Shown here piece by piece: positions 19,530-41,421 of a stretch of DNA of 41,422 bases. The notes under the pieces were generated by a model, which saw only the letters and a program-made list of their open reading frames with translations, did not search any database and was not told where the DNA came from. Numbering within the stretch: position 1 is the first letter of the stretch; every line of letters begins with the position of its first letter. Both the position numbers and the translations under genes were made by a program. Source of the DNA: a virus; the IMG/VR virus record IMGVR_UViG_3300031565_000113, positions 1-41,422 of that record. One strand, 5' to 3'.

Positions 19530-20057
19530 ATGATATATTTTTTAAATATTTTACTATTATGTGTTGTTACTATCTCGCAGACAAGTTATGCGGCCGTGTA
19601 TGATAGAAAACCACTACAAATGGACGGGGCTATTAGGGTTTTAGCTACTAGACAAACAAAAACTTTTGAGCTTCCTGCAGTTTTTAACAAAAAAGAGCTC
19701 AGGGAAGATATATCCCCTTTTTATTGTAAGTTATGGACGGATTATAGGGGAGAGCGAGGTTTAGGTGCACATATTTTTTCTTTTTCTATGTATGGGCTTG
19801 TGCAATACCCAGGCGGAAATTTTGACACACAAATGCAAATTCCCCTTGCTAAAGATGCGTATATAGTATTTAGTAACGGTGGGTATTTAAAAGAAGAATA
19901 TATGCGCGACGGGATAGAAATTAGCTTTGAAGTTAGCAACGAAAACTGTTCTTATAAAGACCCGGTATGTACTCCAACAGTCGATAAGCACCTTTTTATG
20001 CAATGCTTTAAGGGTAGTCCACCATCTACAGCTACTACAGCTCCAATCAAGCGTTAA
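19530..20057 (+). CDS. Exported protein of unknown function (cargo/moron candidate)
   Basis: This 175-residue protein begins with a clear Sec signal peptide. The hydrophobic stretch IYFLNILLLCVVTIS (residues 2-16) ends in 'TSYA', with probable cleavage before 'AVYD'. The mature part is beta-rich with four cysteines near the middle and end, suggesting disulfides in the periplasm, and has a Pro/Thr/Ala-rich tail. ATG 19530 is chosen for the AGGAA Shine-Dalgarno eight bases upstream; the longer frame from 19497 adds only a T-run-encoded extension. It stands alone at the end of the structural operon and converges on the primase gene with an 11-bp overlap. I do not recognise a family; superinfection exclusion or host surface change are possible roles. 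Confidence 0.65.
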   Translation: MIYFLNILLLCVVTISQTSYAAVYDRKPLQMDGAIRVLATRQTKTFELPAVFNKKELREDISPFYCKLWTDYRGERGLGAHIFSFSMYGLVQYPGGNFDTQMQIPLAKDAYIVFSNGGYLKEEYMRDGIEISFEVSNENCSYKDPVCTPTVDKHLFMQCFKGSPPSTATTAPIKR

Positions 20058-22287
20058 GCTGTGCTTTTATGTAAGCATCCGTTATAGCCGAAACATCGGT
20101 TAATTCCGCCTGCGGAGAGCCACGCAAAACGAATAACTTCGGCTTTCCGCCGTCGGGCATTATGAAAGAATTTACACGCCCATTTGGTAGCCCTCGATGC
20201 CAGTCGTAACCTAACGCCCTCATCATTTCACGGCGTTTATTTAACTGTATTTTTCTACGCAATCCGTCGATTAGTTTTGCGAGAGCCATCGACGACACCC
20301 ACCCACCTCTGAAACCTATACGACCTTCTTCTATCGCTTCAACTATTTCTTGCTCGACTACGCCGAGCGTGGCGGTTATAGCGAGTTGAGTGCTTGAGGT
20401 TTCGGGTGCTCGGTGGCATTTTCCTGCGGGGTTAAATTCGGCCGGTATCTGATAAGTTGCTAAGAAGTTGTGAACATACGCATAGCCGACATCATGTAGC
20501 CAACCGTATAATGCGGGGAAATAGTCGCCATGGAGTCCATCGGCTACAATATCTGTCATCTCCTGCTGTTTACAATAAAAAATAGCGAAACGCCTGTCGT
20601 TAGCCGTCTTGCGTATAGCATCTTGGTGATTTGAATTTATGATAAAATTAGCACATATATCGGCTGTTATCTGGTCGACCCCTTTTGCTTGTATCTCGAT
20701 ACCATCCCCGCCTGTAATCATTGGTTTTAGCGTTTCTATTATTGACCGTTTATCCTCGGGAACATAAATATCCTCAACACCGATAAATAATTTATTTAGC
20801 AACCACGCATTAAATTTGTTGTCTAAATCCGCCGCTTTGGGAAAATGTACGTATTTACGCCCGATTGCTTGAGCTACGCACCTTGTAAAAAGGGTTTTTC
20901 CGTTGCCTTCCGCCCCCTGTAGCAATGGGCACCACTGGAATTTTATTCCTTTGTGTTGTATGCAGGCAGATAGATAAGATAAAAGGATTATTTGATCACG
21001 CTCTATCGGTAAAATTGTGTTTAAATGTTTTAAAAAAGGCGTAACATCGCCCACGGTGCGTGGCGTGTCTATCGGAACATGAACATTCACAAGACTCCGC
21101 CCCCCTTCTGTGACTATAGCTCCTGACCTCTCGAGTGGTCTAAAGCATTGCGATTGTACTTTAGACGGGCGTAGTGCTTGGCTTTCTGTGAAGGCTTGCC
21201 AAGCGTTGCAGGTCGATTTTGAGTTGAGCGAGTCTATCGCAAAACAATAGCCACCATAGACGGTTTTAAATTGCTCGGGTTTTAATAGGTCGCCCGCAGG
21301 TGTAAAAGCTCTATGTATATCTTGGATATAAACACAGCCCGCGAAGTGCGAGAGCTGTTGTTGCGGACTCAAAAATTGGTATCCTGCTCTAATCCCGGCC
21401 TCGCCAGCGACCGTTTCCGCCGTTGAAGCAGTAGCCACGGGCGTTACATGTTTATTATATGTTGTTTTTTGTTTTAAAATTGCGTAGTTTATCGTCCTGT
21501 GCAGATAGTCCTCCCGCTTCCATTTATCTCGAACTAGCGACGATAAAAGCATTATTCTATGCATTTGTTCCGCATTTCTAGCAGTCCAAAAGGCGAGATG
21601 TTGAGCTAGGGCCGCATCGGCTGTTGAGTAGTCATAGTCTCTTATGCCGTCATTTGTCGGATATTTTTTAGCAAGTATTTTAACATCACGGGTCCATAGG
21701 GCTTTAAAATTACATTCGCTATAAAGTGGGTTTTTAGACTTTAAAGCGAGAGCTATCAGCGTGCTGTCTTCTGTGGTTATATCACGCTGTGGCGTTTCTT
21801 GCTCTATAATATCCGCAGGTTTAAAATGTTTTTCTATTGTTGTCTCGAGCTGTGTTGTGCAGTCTATCGAGCTGTCGCCCACGGCTTGCGTTCCTGTTAG
21901 AGCTACATAGCGACCTGATGTGTATAATTCTATGCCAAATTCTTTATTTTTGCACAGGTGCAGAGGTTCTTCTCCGATATAACTCCCGATGATATGCAAT
22001 CCCCGACCAGACTTTGACACTTCTACATAAGCACCCTTGAAAACTTCTATTAGTTCAGTTGCGATCGGCTTCCAATTCCCCGAGTTATCCACACAGTTAT
22101 CCACATCTATAAAAAAAAGAGAGTCATTTTTTGTAAAAATAAAACCTACGGCTCTACCGCCTGCCGACGCTTCTTCGTAGCTCACGGCTAGCGTGGTGTC
22201 TGTAATGTCAATAATTTTTCCGTTCCGTGGGTTTATCGGCAATTTTTTATCCGCAGAATAATTTATAAATTGTTTATAGCGATGCAA
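20047..22287 (-). CDS. Primase-polymerase-helicase, NrS-1/VapE-like
   Basis: This 746-residue replication protein has three parts. A PrimPol-type N-terminal domain has a catalytic 'FFIDVDN' (acidic residues 61 and 63), then 'VEVSKSGRGLHIIGS' near 110-125 and 'GIELYTSGRYVALTG' near 140-155. Together these resemble the polymerase of Nitratiruptor phage NrS-1. A helical PriCT-like linker near residues 225-270 contains 'SLVRDKWKREDYLHRTI'. The superfamily 3-type helicase domain has Walker A 'EGNGKT' near 460, Walker B 'FIGVEDIY' near 500 and a sensor-like 'NFIINSNHQ' near 545. It probably primes, and may also copy, DNA while unwinding it. It is last in the leftward replication operon and overlaps the mini-TetR gene by 14 bp. 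Confidence 0.85.
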   Translation of the reverse strand: MHRYKQFINYSADKKLPINPRNGKIIDITDTTLAVSYEEASAGGRAVGFIFTKNDSLFFIDVDNCVDNSGNWKPIATELIEVFKGAYVEVSKSGRGLHIIGSYIGEEPLHLCKNKEFGIELYTSGRYVALTGTQAVGDSSIDCTTQLETTIEKHFKPADIIEQETPQRDITTEDSTLIALALKSKNPLYSECNFKALWTRDVKILAKKYPTNDGIRDYDYSTADAALAQHLAFWTARNAEQMHRIMLLSSLVRDKWKREDYLHRTINYAILKQKTTYNKHVTPVATASTAETVAGEAGIRAGYQFLSPQQQLSHFAGCVYIQDIHRAFTPAGDLLKPEQFKTVYGGYCFAIDSLNSKSTCNAWQAFTESQALRPSKVQSQCFRPLERSGAIVTEGGRSLVNVHVPIDTPRTVGDVTPFLKHLNTILPIERDQIILLSYLSACIQHKGIKFQWCPLLQGAEGNGKTLFTRCVAQAIGRKYVHFPKAADLDNKFNAWLLNKLFIGVEDIYVPEDKRSIIETLKPMITGGDGIEIQAKGVDQITADICANFIINSNHQDAIRKTANDRRFAIFYCKQQEMTDIVADGLHGDYFPALYGWLHDVGYAYVHNFLATYQIPAEFNPAGKCHRAPETSSTQLAITATLGVVEQEIVEAIEEGRIGFRGGWVSSMALAKLIDGLRRKIQLNKRREMMRALGYDWHRGLPNGRVNSFIMPDGGKPKLFVLRGSPQAELTDVSAITDAYIKAQLNA

Positions 22288-22552
22288 GAGCTCTCTCCTT
22301 TAATTCTTGTGATATATCAGCTATTAGCTTATCTTTACAGACTAAAGCTTGAGCGATTATTATTAAGTTTTCTGTTTTTATAGCACGCAAAACAACCTCC
22401 TTTTTTAGATTATCTAATTTTCTAAAATAGTACGGCACAGACGGCGGAGAAACTCCGGCTCTATCTGCAACATCAGCCTGCGTTATTTGCCGATAGCCTT
22501 TCTCTTCTGCGACTTTAACGGCCGCATCAATAATTTTTGTGTAAGTACTCAT
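22274..22552 (-). CDS. Mini-TetR DNA-binding protein
   Basis: This 92-residue protein is essentially the TetR N-terminal helix-turn-helix: 'IIDAAVKVAEEKGYRQITQA' (residues 7-26), 'DVADRAGVSPPSVPYYFRKL' and 'DNLKKEVVLRAI'. The usual ~120-residue ligand-binding and dimerisation domain is missing. It sits in the replication operon between nuclease and primase-helicase, three bases after the nuclease stop. It may act as a DNA-binding accessory of replication or as an autoregulator without effector control. The frame is intact and overlaps the downstream gene, so it looks functional rather than broken. Confidence 0.75.
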   Translation of the reverse strand: MSTYTKIIDAAVKVAEEKGYRQITQADVADRAGVSPPSVPYYFRKLDNLKKEVVLRAIKTENLIIIAQALVCKDKLIADISQELKERALASL

Positions 22553-22554
22553 TT

Positions 22555-22911
22555 TTAAAACCCCAAATATTTTTTTAATAAAGAGACATCATTTATAAAA
22601 AAACCATAGCCTCCATTTTTTCTAACGATTTCTAAAAATCGTTCTTGTGCTAGCTCTTTTAATGTTCCCGTAAAAACCCAGCCTTCTTTTTTCGCCTCGA
22701 TAGCTATAAAACGACCAGTAGAAGTCAGACCGATTAAATCGCTTGATTTTATGTTTTGGTTCATTCTATAGCTATCATTAGCTAGCCCGTATCTAACCAA
22801 ACGCCCATCAGGGGCGTAGGTCGCTCCCGTATTATTGCGCCACAGGGTCACGCCAAGAGAAGGGGCTATAAGTCGTATTTCTTGAAGCACTATTTTTTCA
22901 TTTTTTTTCAT
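22555..22911 (-). CDS. VRR-NUC domain nuclease
   Basis: This 118-residue protein has the compact PD-(D/E)XK fold of phage VRR-NUC proteins. 'LWRNNTGATYAPDGRLVRYG' occupies residues ~23-42. 'KSSDLIGLT' carries the catalytic aspartate near 58, 'GRFIAIEAKKEGW' the E-x-K near 72-74, and 'ELAQERFLEIVRKNGGYGFF' the conserved Q and GG. Standalone VRR-NUC proteins are structure-selective nucleases, for example resolving branched replication or recombination intermediates. It is encoded between the MORN-repeat and mini-TetR genes and overlaps the former by 14 bp. Confidence 0.88.
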   Translation of the reverse strand: MKKNEKIVLQEIRLIAPSLGVTLWRNNTGATYAPDGRLVRYGLANDSYRMNQNIKSSDLIGLTSTGRFIAIEAKKEGWVFTGTLKELAQERFLEIVRKNGGYGFFINDVSLLKKYLGF

Positions 22912-23518
22912 TTACACTGTACCCGTCTTTATATGCGCAAATTACTGTTTTTTGTCCGTTTTCATCGTATTCCGCAGCAACGCCATTTAATTTATCGTTT
23001 TTATACGGAACTTCGAATTTTTTTTGCCCGTCCTCGCTGTATGATATATAGATGCCGTTTAATTCATCGTTTTTATATGCCCATTCACGCATTTTCTGAC
23101 CATTTTTGTAATATTCCGTAGAAATGCCATCTAATTTATTATTTTTAAAGGTATCTTCTTTCTTTTTTTTACCATTTTCTTGATACAGAATACGAACTCC
23201 GTATTTTTTATCATTTTTATATTCGCAACTTATGGATTTTTGTCCGCTTTTATACCACCCTTCAAGAAGACCGGCTTTTTTCCCGGCTTTACAGGTATAT
23301 GTATACCGTTTTTTGCCGCAGTCATACCAAATCGTATACGTCCCCGTTAATTTAAAAGTTTCTGAGACCCATTTAGAACCGTTCGATTTAGCTATATATA
23401 GCTCGTTTAAAATTTGCGTATGATCTACTATGCCAATTTGCCCGTATCTACCGATAAACCAACACAAAACATCATCTGGGGCCTCGTTATCTAATAATTT
23501 TTTAAATGTTATTTTCAT
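22898..23518 (-). CDS. MORN/YwqK-repeat protein, copy 1
   Basis: This 206-residue protein has an N-terminal domain with the pattern C-W-F-I-G-R-Y-G-Q ... D-H-T-Q-I-L-N-E-L (residues ~19-40) and 'TFKLTG'. About six 23-residue MORN-like repeats follow, of the type Y-K-N-D-K-L-N-G-x-x-x-E-Y-x-x-N-G-Q-K. Such repeats form flat beta sheets and usually mediate protein or membrane contacts; the 'YwqK antitoxin' name of the family is not evidence of an antitoxin role here. The gene is coupled to the helicase by a 4-bp overlap. A paralogue sits at 38580-39242. Confidence 0.75.
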   Translation of the reverse strand: MKITFKKLLDNEAPDDVLCWFIGRYGQIGIVDHTQILNELYIAKSNGSKWVSETFKLTGTYTIWYDCGKKRYTYTCKAGKKAGLLEGWYKSGQKSISCEYKNDKKYGVRILYQENGKKKKEDTFKNNKLDGISTEYYKNGQKMREWAYKNDELNGIYISYSEDGQKKFEVPYKNDKLNGVAAEYDENGQKTVICAYKDGYSVNEKK

Positions 23519-25212: not shown

Positions 25213-25896
25213 ATGAAACTAATTTTAAAAATACCCGAGGGGATTACTGATTTAGATTTAGAGCTCAGGATTATGCCAAAGCAAGCCGAGCAAGCCGAGC
25301 AAGCCGAGCAAGCCGAGCAAGCCGAGCAAGCCGAGCAAGCCGAGCAAGCCGAGCAAGCCGAGCAAGTCGAGCAAGTCGAGCAAGTCGAGCAAGTCGAGCA
25401 AGCCGAGCAAGTCGAGGAAGCCGAGGAAGCCGAGCAAGCCGAGCAAGCCGAGTATATGGGGCATATACCGCCCGAATACGCCATGCCCGAAGAAGACGAC
25501 GAGCAAGAAGAAGAGCTAGACACAGATGGCATTCCTTGGGATGCAAGAATCCACAGCGGGGCGAGGTCAAAGCTCGTGACCGGCGTTTGGAAAGTAAGAA
25601 GGGGTATGAACCCTGCGTATGTCGCTGGCATTTTAGACGAGCTAAAGCAAACTATCGCTAAAGAGCCACAACAACCAGTGGAGACTACACCCGAGGAATT
25701 TACAGATATAAAAACAGTCCAGTGGCTGATAACTTATGTGACTTCTAAAATTGCTGAGGGTAAACTGTCACAACAAGATATAGTTAGCGTTTTAGCAGAA
25801 ACGGGGGTACATAGTTTGCAATCACTACATGCAAATCCTGCTCTTTTGCCTGAAGTTTCAAGAGCTATACAGAAAAGAGTAGCCGAAAATGGGTAG
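25213..25896 (+). CDS. Phage protein with 19-unit Glu/Ala minisatellite; conserved C-terminus
   Basis: This 227-residue protein has a short N-terminal strand region (LILKIPEGITDLDLELRIM). A 57-residue acidic repeat, [Q/E][A/V]E x19 (residues 24-80), follows and is predicted to be one long helix. A conserved C-terminal part then contains 'DTDGIPWDARIHSGARSKLV' and 'GVWKVRRGMNPAYV', and closes with a helical 'EGKLSQQDIVSVLAETGVHS' domain. That 'D-x-x-G-x-P-W-D-x-R-I-H' motif recurs in phage proteins encoded beside DUF2800 and DUF2815 genes; its function is not established. It heads the rightward replication operon and overlaps the nuclease gene by 8 bp. Confidence 0.75.
   Translation: MKLILKIPEGITDLDLELRIMPKQAEQAEQAEQAEQAEQAEQAEQAEQAEQVEQVEQVEQVEQAEQVEEAEEAEQAEQAEYMGHIPPEYAMPEEDDEQEEELDTDGIPWDARIHSGARSKLVTGVWKVRRGMNPAYVAGILDELKQTIAKEPQQPVETTPEEFTDIKTVQWLITYVTSKIAEGKLSQQDIVSVLAETGVHSLQSLHANPALLPEVSRAIQKRVAENG
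25282..25452 (+). repeat. 9-bp tandem repeat (CAAGCCGAG)x19
   Basis: There are nineteen uninterrupted 9-bp units. The first nine are identical (25282-25362); later ones vary by C/T (Ala/Val) or C/G (Gln/Glu). It stays in frame inside the gene at 25213. The minus strand gives long spurious open frames here. Such an array should expand and contract by slippage. Confidence 0.97.
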
Positions 25897-37046: not shown

Positions 37047-37274
37047 TTATTTGTCAAGCTCAATCATATCTTCTTTTACTCTTTTAATAAAAATTTTATC
37101 TTTTTTAACTAACCCGAGTAATTTTTCGTATTTTTTATCACGCACTATAGTATATGGATGCGTTTTGTATGGCTGGGCTAAAATAGTTAAGATTCCGGCT
37201 TTACACCACCTTTTTATCAGCGTGCGGGAGCGGCCAAATTCAGCCATCGCATCAATAACAAGCAGAGTTTTCAT
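37047..37274 (-). CDS. Small HTH protein (excisionase/MerR-like)
   Basis: This 75-residue basic protein has a winged-helix-like start: 'AMAEFGRSRTLIKRWCKAGI' (residues 9-28), then a turn, 'PYTIVRDKKYEKLL' and a lysine-rich helix. The pattern suits a small DNA-binding regulator or a recombination-directionality-type protein; with no integrase present, a regulator is more likely. It overlaps the TOPRIM gene by 4 bp and ends 50 bp before the terminator. Confidence 0.6.
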   Translation of the reverse strand: MKTLLVIDAMAEFGRSRTLIKRWCKAGILTILAQPYKTHPYTIVRDKKYEKLLGLVKKDKIFIKRVKEDMIELDK

Positions 37275-37822: not shown

Positions 37823-38014
37823 CTAATCAAAAATTCTTTTTATCTTATCGTCCTTCTTTTTTCTTAAAAAAATCTCGTATCGGTTGACATCGATATCTCG
37901 CGGGCATGTTATGCCCAGTTTAACCTCTCCTCTTTTTGTGTCTAAAATTTTAATATCGATTTCGTCGTCGCCAAAAATTATCGACTCATTAACCTTTCTT
38001 GTAAAAACTAACAT
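37823..38014 (-). CDS. csrA: CsrA/RsmA-family RNA-binding regulator
   Basis: This 63-residue protein aligns along its whole length with CsrA. It starts 'MLVFTRKVNESIIFGDD', with the RNA-contacting Arg6, and continues with 'VKLGITCPRDIDVNRYEIFL', in which Arg45 matches the second key arginine (Arg44 in E. coli). Position 4 is Phe instead of the usual Leu and the residue before Arg45 is Asn instead of His. CsrA dimers bind GGA-containing leaders and block or stabilise mRNAs; in Campylobacterota the host protein controls flagellin and is antagonised by FliW. A phage copy may retune host or phage translation. It has its own cassette promoter (copy A) and a strong AAGGAGA. Confidence 0.92.
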   Translation of the reverse strand: MLVFTRKVNESIIFGDDEIDIKILDTKRGEVKLGITCPRDIDVNRYEIFLRKKKDDKIKRIFD

Positions 38015-38530: not shown

Positions 38531-38583
38531 CTCCTTTAGTTATTAATACAAGTTAAGTGTATCATACTTAGCACAGTTGTTAA
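38531..38583 (-). promoter_or_regulatory. Repeated promoter cassette, copy B
   Basis: Read leftward: TTAACA (38578-38583), a 16-bp spacer and TACACT (38556-38561), then TTAACTTGTATTAATAACTAAAGGAG. The leader is nearly identical to copies C and D. The -35 overlaps the stop codon of the MORN-repeat gene at 38580. Confidence 0.78.
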
Positions 38584-39242
38584 CAATTATTTTTAATAAT
38601 TTGCGTTCCACAACATATAACTGTAATAATATTTCTTTTTTCATCATAAGTTCTTTTTTCATATAGCACGCCATTTTTAAAATTTTCTTCACTGCCTGTT
38701 TTTTTGCCTTCTTTGTATTCTATGCGGTTATATATCTTGCCTCCGTACGAAAAATATGATTGAAAACCTTCTTTAAGATTATTTACATATGTAGTTAAAT
38801 ATTGAGTTCTTCCGTTTTCGTAAAACTCTTCGCATTTCCCCTCCATTAGCCCTTTAATATAATTTCGCTGTTCTCTTACTCTCCTTATTTTTCCTGCTTT
38901 GTAATACTCTTTATAAATACCATCTTTAACTCCATTTTTATATGTGCATTCTTCTGCCAACAGATATTTTCTGTAAAAAGTTTTACAAATTCCGTCTCTA
39001 ACTCCCTCTTTATAAGATATTTCGCTAGTAATATAGCCATCTTCAAAAAGAAAACATATTCCTGAAAGCTTGAAAGTTTTAAACAACCAGTACGCAAAGT
39101 CTCCCCCTCTTTTTTCTTCAAAAAGAGCTTTTAAAATGTCCATATGCTCTATATCTTTGTTTTGCCCAAATTTTCCGACAAACCAGTCTGAATTTATAGT
39201 TTCAATATAATTTTCTAATAATAAATTTACATTAATTTTCAT
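38580..39242 (-). CDS. MORN/YwqK-repeat protein, copy 2
   Basis: This 220-residue paralogue of the protein at 22898 shares the N-terminal pattern D-W-F-V-G-K-F-G-Q ... E-H-M-D-I-L-K-A-L (residues ~19-40) and 'TFKLSG'. Repeats of the type Y-K-N-G-V-K-D-G-I-Y-K-E-Y-Y-x-x-G follow. The last ~13 residues (CCGTQIIKNNC and flanks) are encoded by the 39-bp block duplicated at 38072-38110 but in another frame. The native C-terminus therefore appears to have been replaced when the promoter cassette was copied. It has AAGGAG upstream and follows the gene at 39270 by 27 bases, probably on the same transcript. Confidence 0.75.
   Translation of the reverse strand: MKINVNLLLENYIETINSDWFVGKFGQNKDIEHMDILKALFEEKRGGDFAYWLFKTFKLSGICFLFEDGYITSEISYKEGVRDGICKTFYRKYLLAEECTYKNGVKDGIYKEYYKAGKIRRVREQRNYIKGLMEGKCEEFYENGRTQYLTTYVNNLKEGFQSYFSYGGKIYNRIEYKEGKKTGSEENFKNGVLYEKRTYDEKRNIITVICCGTQIIKNNC
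38582..38620 (-). repeat. 39-bp duplicated block behind promoter copy B
   Basis: This block is 37/39 identical to 38072-38110. Here the whole block is coding, forming the tail of the MORN-repeat protein, in a frame different from the one used in the other copy. Confidence 0.92.
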
Positions 39243-39269: not shown

Positions 39270-39779
39270 TTAATAATCAAATCCCCACAATGCTGTTAAA
39301 GCATTATGTTTTTCAGCAATTTGTTTTATTTCGCCGCTACAATCATCTTTAGAATCTAGTAAAGCGTTGTAAATATTAACTAATTCTCTTTTTCGATAAA
39401 TAAACATTTCAAAATCTTGTAACGATTTATCTTTATTCACAATCCAAAATCTTGAATGTGAATAATTTTTTGATGTTGCAAGTATTTCTGCGACTTCTTT
39501 TGAAACACTAGTTAAAATACAAGCTCTTATCTTTTCAGCCCACTCTTTTTGTTTTAAAGTTCCACGCAACGCTAAACCACCGAATTTTTTAGCTGTTTTT
39601 CTATTTTCTAAGCATTTAGTGTTAACTTTTTGTCTTATTGATGCTGTTCCATTTTCTAAAGCTTCATAATCTATAGATGCGTCATACTGATGTCCTGTTT
39701 CTAAATCGTACCAATAGCCATCATCTTTTTTATCAGGTATATCAGCAAATTTATTTTTCCAGTATTCAAAATTATTCAT
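39270..39779 (-). CDS. Unknown protein heading the leftward early operon
   Basis: This 169-residue protein has an N-terminal 'DGYWYDLETGHQYDASIDYE' segment. A central 'LALRGTLKQKEWAEKIRACI' motif (near residues 73-92) and 'SRFWIVNKDKSLQDFEMFIY' (near 109-128) follow. The G-T/S-x-K-Q-x-x-W-A-E-x-I-R pattern followed by a tryptophan segment recurs in small phage and plasmid proteins of unknown function. It is driven by cassette copy C and has AGGAGA before ATG. Confidence 0.68.
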   Translation of the reverse strand: MNNFEYWKNKFADIPDKKDDGYWYDLETGHQYDASIDYEALENGTASIRQKVNTKCLENRKTAKKFGGLALRGTLKQKEWAEKIRACILTSVSKEVAEILATSKNYSHSRFWIVNKDKSLQDFEMFIYRKRELVNIYNALLDSKDDCSGEIKQIAEKHNALTALWGFDY

Positions 39780-39791
39780 TTTTTTTAGTCT

Positions 39792-39842
39792 CCTTTAATT
39801 AATAATACAAGTTAAGTGTACCATACTAGGCATAGTTGTCAA
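39792..39842 (-). promoter_or_regulatory. Repeated promoter cassette, copy C
   Basis: Read leftward: consensus TTGACA (39837-39842), a 16-bp spacer and TACACT (39815-39820), then TTAACTTGTATTATTAATTAAAGGAG. Beyond the -35 it shares 'TATTTATG' with copy D, while copies A and B share a different upstream block, so the four fall into two pairs. This is the first promoter of the leftward early operon. Confidence 0.8.
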
Positions 39843-39871
39843 CATAAATATGCGAATAAATTTAAAATAGG

Positions 39872-39918
39872 TACTGGGAGCTACGAGCCTTAGTGCCACG
39901 GGGGTTTCCAGCAAGTCC
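39872..39918 (+). repeat. Dispersed ~45-bp element, copy R1
   Basis: The core runs TACTGGGAGCTACGAGCC then TTAGTGCCACGGGGGTTTCC, ending CAGCAAGTCC. It is closest to R4 (same orientation) and to R5 (inverted, sharing CTACGAGCCTTAGT and CCAGCAAGTCC). Confidence 0.85.
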
Positions 39919-40060
39919 GCACATTCCGCATAAATTCTGGCTACAACAATTTTTAATCTAAAATTAGCCTTTTTGTACTTTCTTATAAAATACATCAGTT
40001 TTTGCCTTTTTTATGGATTTAATCACATGGGGTGGGAGCAGTGGAAACCTCAAAATGCCC

Positions 40061-40096
40061 CAAAACACCCGTGGGACTAAGACTCACGCTAAAACA
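40061..40096 (-). repeat. Dispersed element, copy R2 (inverted, diverged)
   Basis: CACCCGTGGGACTAAGACTC aligns with the inverse of the R1 core (CCCCCGTGGCACTAAGGCTC). The outer end has lost the CTCCCAGTA block. Confidence 0.6.
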
Positions 40097-40128
40097 GGCG
40101 AACAAAAAGTCCCCAGAGCTTTTTTTTC

Positions 40129-40200
40129 GTACTGGGACTTAAAGGAACGCCCTAGGCATGGGGGTTTCAAGGCATTTTTCTGAAAAAAAAGTCCCAGTAC
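40129..40200. repeat. Perfect 12-bp inverted repeat enclosing copy R3
   Basis: GTACTGGGACTT (40129-40140) and AAGTCCCAGTAC (40189-40200) are exact reverse complements and would form a long hairpin or cruciform around element R3. Copy R4 begins at the next base. Confidence 0.9.
40130..40172 (+). repeat. Dispersed element, copy R3
   Basis: TACTGGGACTTAAAGGAACG leads into GGCATGGGGGTTTCAAGG. It is a subtype shared with R6 (both have CTTAA[A]GGAAC in the middle) and differs from R1/R4/R5, which have CCTTAGTGCCAC. Confidence 0.75.
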
Positions 40201-40248
40201 TACTGGGAGCTGTGGGCCTTAGTGCCACGGGGGTTTCAAGACACTCCA
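40201..40248 (+). repeat. Dispersed element, copy R4
   Basis: TACTGGGAGCTGTGGGCCTT then AGTGCCACGGGGGTTTCAAG. It is nearly identical to R1 over the first ~38 bases and diverges at the end (ACACTCC). Confidence 0.88.
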
Positions 40249-40363
40249 CACGTTTCCCTTTACTTTAGAGAAATTGGTGGGAGAAATAGGTGTAAAAAGG
40301 CAAAAATAGGGTGTAAAAATGGTGCGTGTGGCGACGGATTTGCTGTGAGAACGAAAAATGTGT

Positions 40364-40410
40364 GGACTTGCTGGAAATGTCCGTGAGACTAAGGCTCGTA
40401 GCTCCCAGTA
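40364..40410 (-). repeat. Dispersed element, copy R5 (inverted)
   Basis: Read on the minus strand it is TACTGGGAGCTACGAGCCTT, then AGTCTCACGGACATTTCCAG and CAAGTCC, matching R1 at both ends with changes in the G-run. Confidence 0.85.
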
Positions 40411-40438
40411 GCTCTTGGGACTTTGTTTTTGAAAATCG

Positions 40439-40485
40439 GCTTGAAACCCACGCCCCCGTTGAGTTCCTTAAGCTCCCAAGAGGCT
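40439..40485 (-). repeat. Dispersed element, copy R6 (inverted)
   Basis: On the minus strand: CTTGGGAGCTTAAGGAACTC then AACGGGGGCGTGGGTTTCAA. It is the partner subtype of R3. It is followed by two AGAGGCTCTTGGGAGCTCTTGGGACTTTTT-like half-copies (40481-40507, read in pieces). Confidence 0.7.
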
Positions 40486-40581
40486 CTTGGGAGCTCTTGG
40501 GACTTTTTGTACTTTCTCTGTGATGTTACACACGGAGCGGGATCAGCGTGAATTTTATACGACTAGCGGAAAAAGTCAATA

Positions 40582-40587
40582 TATAGT
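40582..40587 (+). promoter_or_regulatory. Candidate -10 element for the gpZ-like gene
   Basis: TATAGT lies 12 bases before ATG 40599 and 27 before ATG 40614, in an AT-rich stretch after the repeat block. A -35 match is not clear. Start would fall near 40594. Confidence 0.35.
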
Positions 40588-40598
40588 ATTATGCTTTT

Positions 40599-41300
40599 AT
40601 GTTTACGGCGGATATGCAAAACTATAAAATTCTTGAAGAACGGCTAAAAGCTTTTAGCGAAAAAGCAATCCCATTCGCTACCAGACAAACGATAAATGAC
40701 CTTGCTTTCGCCGCCTCTTCTAAAGCTAAAGAGAATATAAGAAAAGAATTTGTTTTGAGAAATAAATTTACAGAGAAATCCATTAGGGTCACGACGACAC
40801 GAGAAAGAACAATATCGGCTCAACGATCAGTCGTTGGCTCTGTAGTAGCGTACATGGAAGAGCAGGAGTTCGGCGGGACTACTACAAAGCGAGGAAAATT
40901 CGGCGTACCTATCCCTACATCTTATTCTGCCGGGCTCTCTGAATCGGCGAAGCCAAGATCAAAAATGATAAGAAAACCAAATAAAATGTCTAGCATCAGC
41001 ATATCTAATAAAAATAGAGCGTTTAAGTCTAAGAAGCAAGCGGCCAAGGTTTCTGTAATCGAAGCGGTGAAGCGGGGGCGTAAATACATTTTCATGGAGC
41101 TGGACAGAACGAAGGGACTTTTTAAAATAACGGGCGGAAAAAATAAACCGAAAATAAAAATGGTCTATGACTTGACCCGGACAAGTATAAAGACTAAAGC
41201 GAGACCGTGGCTACGCCCAGCTTCTCAAGAGGTCATCAAAAACTTTTCTAAAATATATATAAAAAATTTAGAATATCAACTTAAACGCTTTAAGGCGTAA
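40599..41300 (+). CDS. gpZ-like minor tail / tail completion protein
   Basis: This 233-residue basic protein begins like lambda gpZ (minor tail protein Z family). A leading helix 'LEERLKAFSEKAIPFATRQT' (residues ~12-31) is followed by 'INDLAFAASSKAKENIRKEF' and 'RNKFTEKSIRVTTTRE'. The rest is Lys/Arg-rich, with an 'FGVPIPTSYSAG' loop and a C-terminal 'ARPWLRPASQEVI' motif. gpZ-type proteins complete the tail tip that enters the head. Here the gene is detached from the tail module. If the genome is circular it sits just before the terminase genes and could start the late transcript. ATG 40614 is an alternative start. Confidence 0.65.
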   Translation: MFTADMQNYKILEERLKAFSEKAIPFATRQTINDLAFAASSKAKENIRKEFVLRNKFTEKSIRVTTTRERTISAQRSVVGSVVAYMEEQEFGGTTTKRGKFGVPIPTSYSAGLSESAKPRSKMIRKPNKMSSISISNKNRAFKSKKQAAKVSVIEAVKRGRKYIFMELDRTKGLFKITGGKNKPKIKMVYDLTRTSIKTKARPWLRPASQEVIKNFSKIYIKNLEYQLKRFKA

Positions 41301-41409: not shown

Positions 41410-41421
41410 TTTGACCGAACC
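41410..41421. repeat. 12-bp near-terminal direct repeat, right copy
   Basis: TTTGACCGAACC is identical to 2-13. It ends one base before the window end. Confidence 0.6.

Follow-up and report, generated by a model that had tools for sequence, protein, structure and literature searches.

A repeat array beside the neck gene of a contractile-tailed phage is a candidate iteron-type replication origin with a PrimPol-SF3 initiator as its proposed reader

The window, the whole stretch of 41,422 nucleotides that was analysed, is an entire IMG/VR virus record (IMGVR_UViG_3300031565_000113). It encodes lambda-type large terminase and portal proteins as well as a tail sheath. The 12-mer TTTGACCGAACC was found at both window ends (2-13 and 41410-41421) and nowhere else in the window. 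These identical 12-mers are probably filled-in 12-nt cohesive ends, and the window is therefore probably the complete linear genome of a cos-type contractile-tailed phage. Its phage kin are Vibrio VP16, Shewanella SFCi1, and Oceanospirillum PD0307; a search for close relatives of the window found none. The locus under study is a gap between divergent operons in which no convincing gene was found, and it probably also separates two divergent promoters (Table 1). Its conserved right-hand neighbour encodes a neck protein whose isolated relatives (identity up to 45%) belong to phages of Vibrio, Shewanella, Oceanospirillum, Pseudoalteromonas, Aeromonas, and Acinetobacter. In many records of these isolated relatives, the neck gene is located at the same genome end as in the window. 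The original prediction had assumed a Campylobacterota host, which is not supported because the isolated relatives infect Gammaproteobacteria.

The leftward operon adjoining the gap also encodes a CsrA-like RNA-binding regulator at 37823-38014 (-) (PF02599, E 1.6e-17) and a small protein at 37047-37274 (-). The latter resembles by eye an excisionase-type helix-turn-helix (HTH) protein, has no Pfam match, and could be a further repeat-binding candidate. Two MORN_2-repeat proteins are encoded in leftward operons as well, at 22898-23518 (-) and 38580-39242 (-).

Table 1. Coordinates of the array, its parts, its neighbours, and the candidate DNA-binding proteins in the window.
Feature	Position	Strand or orientation	Remark
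Non-coding repeat array, proposed replication origin region	39843-40598	between divergent operons	756 bp
Composite copy 1 (reference copy), TACTGGGAGCT + CCTTAGTGCCACGGGGGTTTC	39872-39936	+	repeat family D1; self-BLAST match 39866-39925
Composite copy 2	40201-40265	+	78% identity to copy 1; family D1; self-BLAST match 40201-40255
Composite copy 3, inverted arm of copy 1	40357-40427	-	inverted repeat I1; self-BLAST match 40357-40416
Weak composite copy 4, CTTAGTCCCACGGGTGTTTT	40030-40112	-	marginal similarity
Weak composite copy 5, second subtype, CCTAGGCATGGGGGTTTCAAGG	40100-40186	+	repeat family D2
Weak composite copy 6, second subtype, CAACGGGGGCGTGGGTTTCAAGC	40428-40512	-	inverted repeat I7
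Iteron-like half-site YTGGGASYT, first of nine	39874-39882	+	
Half-site YTGGGASYT	40132-40140	+	
Inverted half-site pair, AAGTCCCAGTACTACTGGGAGCT	40189-40211		members at 40189(-), 40203(+)
Inverted half-site pair, AGCTCCCAGTAGCTCTTGGGACTT	40400-40423		members at 40400(-), 40415(+)
Inverted half-site pair + tandem pair, then T tract, CTTGGGAGCTCTTGGGACTTTTTG	40471-40516		members at 40471(-), 40487(+), 40497(+)
A+T-rich stretch within array, candidate unwinding element	39940-40019		75-78% A+T
Second A+T-rich stretch, nearer neck gene, as in relatives	40259-40298		70% A+T, modest
Leftward promoter-like site, TTGACA-16-TACACT	39815-39842	-	TG before second hexamer; consensus match alone
Leftward gene, family not recognised, other flank of array	39270-39779	-	nearest start codon 39779
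Neck / minor tail protein Z gene, conserved right-hand neighbour of array	40599-41300	+	
PrimPol-SF3 helicase (NrS-1-type HBD, DUF5906), proposed array-reading initiator	20047-22287	-	
PrimPol C-terminal domain, predicted winged helix, proposed DNA-reading part	20050-20451	-	middling structural matches
Small TetR_N-type helix-turn-helix protein, rival repeat-binding candidate	22274-22552	-	

The gap had been described as a block filled for the most part by six degenerate copies of one element on both strands. The repeats are real, as seen from the copies found by self-BLAST, the half-site counts, and a repeat score reached by 0 of 30 shuffled sequences. Composite copies 1-3 are significant by self-BLAST (E 1e-10 to 1e-15), whereas copies 4-6 are weak; they share the core loosely (E about 0.1), were recognised by motif order, and none is significant individually. 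Repeated 9-mers cover 299 of the 756 bases; in 92 other windows they cover 63 on average and 172 at most, so the extent of the filling was somewhat overstated. The short sequence-specific repeats expected of an iteron origin are clustered here: YTGGGASYT, counted on both strands, has nine occurrences in the gap against two in the other 40.7 kb (0.04 expected). The recurrence of AAGTCCC/GGGACTT was borne out, with five occurrences in the gap and the same number across the other 40.7 kb, and the pattern C[AT][CT]GGGGGTTTC was found three times in the gap and nowhere else in the window. The 12-bp perfect inverted repeat of the original prediction is also present (40129-40140/40189-40200), and so is an outer inverted repeat of 71 nt with 82% complementarity (39855-39925/40357-40427). 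The inverted half-site pairs are located at 40192-40208, 40403-40420, and 40474-40492, and the final two half-sites are arranged in tandem ahead of a T tract (40486-40510). GC content is 43.7% in the gap and 40.5% in the window; the A+T content in the array is modest, and corresponding segments in relatives mostly reach 75-93%.

The array is the strongest non-coding repeat cluster of the window, outscored solely by a (QAE)n array that lies in coding sequence at 25.2 kb. This in-frame tandem array (about 25275-25450) belongs to an open reading frame at 25213-25896 (+) that sits between the helicase and a DUF2800 gene. The early regions of relatives contain repeat-rich genes too, and those of Vibrio phage 1.009 are annotated as CRISPR spacers.

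Comparison with related phages revealed that a repeat-bearing gap lies upstream of the neck gene in nine of the 11 other complete relatives examined (the gap of PD0307 being repeat-bearing weakly by score) and that its word differs per lineage. The exceptions, SppYZU01 and Scuro, are the two isolates examined that have the window's primase type, and both lack a strong array. In 45 of 76 IMG/VR neck loci, the 600 bases upstream are richer in repeats than each of 30 shuffles, and 29 of these have a z of 5 or more. The words found in the neck arrays of relatives include GGTGCAC, TACCACTA, TTGGTCA, TCGTCCAT, and GTTACAAA, and in several IMG/VR neck loci an A+T-rich segment abuts the tandem word copies. 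Therefore the position and format of the array are conserved and its sequence is not. The window's own repeat word had no array match in phages, plasmids, or viral contigs; a single viral match to the core (locus L006) apparently lies inside a coding sequence and is probably due to chance. The closest neck relative (L053) has a palindromic array of its own without significant similarity to that of the window. A second motif that seemed by eye to be common to the two was dismissed, its best match (22 bits) being below the shuffled maximum (26.5). A clean split of the words by primase type (TGT versus TAC) was likewise abandoned, as TTGTAGCGG repeats occur in some window-type relatives too. Five loci (L073, L074, L052, L062, and L022) have extra tandem TTGTAGCGGCTT-type repeats beside GGGGTA-type words upstream of the neck gene, and two repeat families are thus present in some relatives.

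The relatives examined encode a PrimPol with an SF3/D5-type helicase domain, of which there are two types. The neck gene remains the neighbour of the array in window-type phages, and the primase is found 1-3 kb away in relatives and 18 kb away in the window. With the second primase type, 17 of the 25 loci have their array directly upstream of the primase (0/60 shuffles), some of the 25 being near-duplicates (L142/L158 and L151/L154). Repeat enrichment downstream of this primase was seen in only two of the 25. No neck homologue was found within the 2.5-kb flank in 13 of the 17. Strong arrays just upstream of a related PrimPol, with no neck homologue nearby, were observed at L132, L133, L137, L138, L142, and L146; L137 has 13 TGTCACA copies in this position. 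This format of origin may thus not be confined to VP16-like phages.

The window's PrimPol, the candidate initiator, combines primase and SF3/D5-type helicase domains within one protein, as expected of SaPI/P4-type PrimPol-SF3 initiators. Its matches are PF22763, PF19263, a PHROG DNA primase, the NrS-1 primase structures 6k9a and 6k9e, and 7ola. The second type has a profile that matches 7ola and 7pds, which are SaPI-type initiators. Since the structure prediction for the whole protein was poor (mean pLDDT 45), the C-terminus was used alone. It is predicted to have an H-E-H-H-E-E topology with a pLDDT of about 90 in the core, and its structural matches to winged helices have a Z of about 4-6. 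Foldseek returned nothing at E 0.001 or better for this segment, and Pfam gave no significant match. Within the window's primase type the C-terminus is largely conserved though the repeats vary.

The second primase type allows the repeat word and the initiator to be followed together. Vibrio phages 367.14 and 97.13 share a 230-bp gap-free array segment with 14 substitutions, in which TGTTGT (367.14) is replaced by TGTAGT (97.13) at all seven scored copies (hypergeometric P = 5.6e-10). Of 831 primase positions, 31 differ between the two phages, and the differences are concentrated in the C-terminus, with 11 in 90 residues compared with 8 in 641 in the middle of the protein (p = 1.8e-6; first 100 residues excluded). 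A 1.7-fold C-terminal excess (p = 0.004-0.006) was also found between L128 (TGTTGT) and both PD0307 and L129 (TGTAGT). L130 showed no overall C-terminal excess against PD0307 or L129. Seven pairs with the same repeat have C-terminal ratios of 0.6-1.3, with no excess. When the TGTTGT phages (367.14, L128, and L130) were compared with the TGTAGT phages (97.13, PD0307, and L129), which may represent as few as two independent switches, one alignment column was fixed-different. This is residue 797 in the C-terminal domain, Gly with TGTTGT and Ser with TGTAGT. Five control splits cutting across the two clades gave zero fixed-different columns. Further TGTAGT phages have Ser (L132) or Arg (AeroV_348 and L131) at this residue; because of the Arg-containing phages, the Gly/Ser rule is not universal. 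As judged from these sequence comparisons, in relatives with the second primase type the repeats alter as a set, and the C-terminal domain of the initiator alters with them.

Several known systems resemble the arrangement in the window. In SaPI origins, and likewise in SCCmec, a self-loading helicase (Rep/PriRep and Cch2, respectively), which in some cases is fused to a primase, recognises the iterons through its C-terminal domain (PMC7581432). Both the window-type and the second-type initiators are homologous to 7ola, and the second type also to 7pds. The SaPI origin is just downstream of rep, whereas the arrays of second-type phages are upstream of the primase and window-type arrays are beside the neck gene, 2-18 kb from the primase. 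An origin adjoining the initiator gene, as in SaPI- and P4-type systems, is thus not what the window has. Moreover, the window's repeat units are palindromic composites, unlike those of SaPI. Plasmid pRN1 and phage BIP-1 also have an AEP primase, an SF3 helicase, and a winged helix in a single protein, and the large inverted repeat near their stem-loop origin is comparable to the outer inverted repeat of the window. However, pRN1 has no iterons and its stem-loop is 3' of the replication gene, whereas most relatives of the window carry iterons and no obvious large stem-loop. The origin of P4 has repeats in both orientations, with a second repeat region some kilobases off. P4 alpha, which acts at ori1 and crr, is a multifunctional primase-helicase that recognises the origin repeats through a winged helix (PMC4234260), but its primase domain is of the Toprim type and the sequences are unrelated to those of the window. 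NrS-1 PrimPol has the same N-terminal PrimPol and helix-bundle domain (Pfam PF22763, PDB 6k9a). The passages of the NrS-1 reports consulted describe an 8-nt priming site, TTTGGTTA, found twice in the genome, and, in contrast to the window, mention no iteron array (PMC7102993, PMC8718748). Lastly, in the PLE satellite origin a phage-satellite initiator binds repeats that contain inverted sub-repeats (PMC7145576), although RepA_N is an unrelated initiator family.

Of the four roles originally proposed for the block, the origin with iterons is the best supported, and it is likely that the array is the phage's iteron-type replication origin, read by its PrimPol-SF3 initiator. By homology, the initiator would bind the YTGGGASYT half-sites via its C-terminal winged-helix domain and load its helicase as oligomers, which would melt the neighbouring A+T-rich stretch and so fire the origin. 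The PrimPol would then prime DNA synthesis at the melted origin, and extension of the primed DNA would fall to the family-A DNA polymerase and the ssDNA-binding protein that the phage itself encodes. The covariation of repeats with the initiator was found for the second, array-adjacent primase type and not for the window's own. GC skew had been proposed as a check for an origin; GC and TA skew along the window follow gene direction and give no clear origin mark.

An alternative is that the array consists of operators through which a phage regulator, such as the small TetR_N-type protein or some early protein, controls the divergent promoters, making it an early/late switch and not an origin. 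Transcription units do diverge on either side of the array, a leftward promoter-like site matches the consensus well, and the half-sites are arranged as inverted pairs, as are the operators of dimeric repressors. The TetR_N-type protein also has counterparts in the relatives examined. However, 13 arrays adjoin a second-type primase at loci where no neck gene was found within 2.5 kb. As the array can part from the neck or the primase gene, an origin acted on in trans fits better than the operator of one gene. Moreover, the switch between 367.14 and 97.13 alters the primase C-terminus, yet the recognition-helix segment of the TetR_N-type protein is identical across it, and this protein was set aside as the repeat binder. 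A small HTH_17/Xis-type protein beside the second-type primase was also discarded, since no such protein is found there in 97.13. A purely regulatory array is therefore considered unlikely. A regulatory role may still coexist with the origin because of the location between divergent transcription units, and many iteron replicons have iterons with both roles. That initiator-bound iterons also repress or activate the flanking promoters would agree with this location and with the initiator covariation; a combined role is plausible enough, but as a reading of its own it is rated improbable.

Two other roles from the original prediction found no support. Structured RNAs, whether one or several, or a cluster of intrinsic terminators (hairpin and T tract, GGGACTTTTT) might account for the large predicted fold (z of -14 as DNA and -19 as RNA) and for two terminator-like hairpins followed by T tracts. 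Nevertheless, such a strong fold arises automatically from the inverted copies, and no Rfam family reached its threshold; a match to RF04139 (24 bits against a threshold of 200) was spurious. The two terminators are not above the 0.9 +/- 0.9 found in shuffles, the repeats of many relatives have no obvious hairpins, and the array is upstream of both flanking transcription units, making an RNA or terminator function very improbable. The degenerate composites in both orientations do look like miniature mobile repeats, which would suit a dispersed repeat family, host-derived or selfish, that the phage had captured. Yet in 84,980 species genomes, an exact core pattern that covers only the three good copies gave just four scattered single matches in unrelated groups and was never found more than once in a genome. 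No phage or plasmid match was found either, and unrelated words occupy the same place in relatives. A captured host repeat is already largely refuted, and we give it next to no chance.

Iteron origins with PrimPol/SF3 initiators are already known. No origin of a VP16-like phage was reported in the open-licence literature searched. The VP16-like version, with palindromic composites, an array separated from the initiator gene, and rapid concerted change of the word, was also absent from that literature and appears new. If the reading of the array as an iteron origin is right, the origin would be located across a widespread group of contractile-tailed phages and its reader protein named. Natural pairs such as 367.14 and 97.13 would allow a DNA-recognition switch to be studied with few other changes, and the joint change of a multi-copy recognition site with the protein that reads it would become testable. 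A more tentative proposal, possible but somewhat doubtful, is that the origin-initiator system of this family changes its word rapidly, with all copies in concert and the C-terminal domain (Gly/Ser 797) tracking the word. If true, related phages would come to have origin specificities that are incompatible with one another, and the pressure behind this might come from satellites or from competing phages exploiting the origin.
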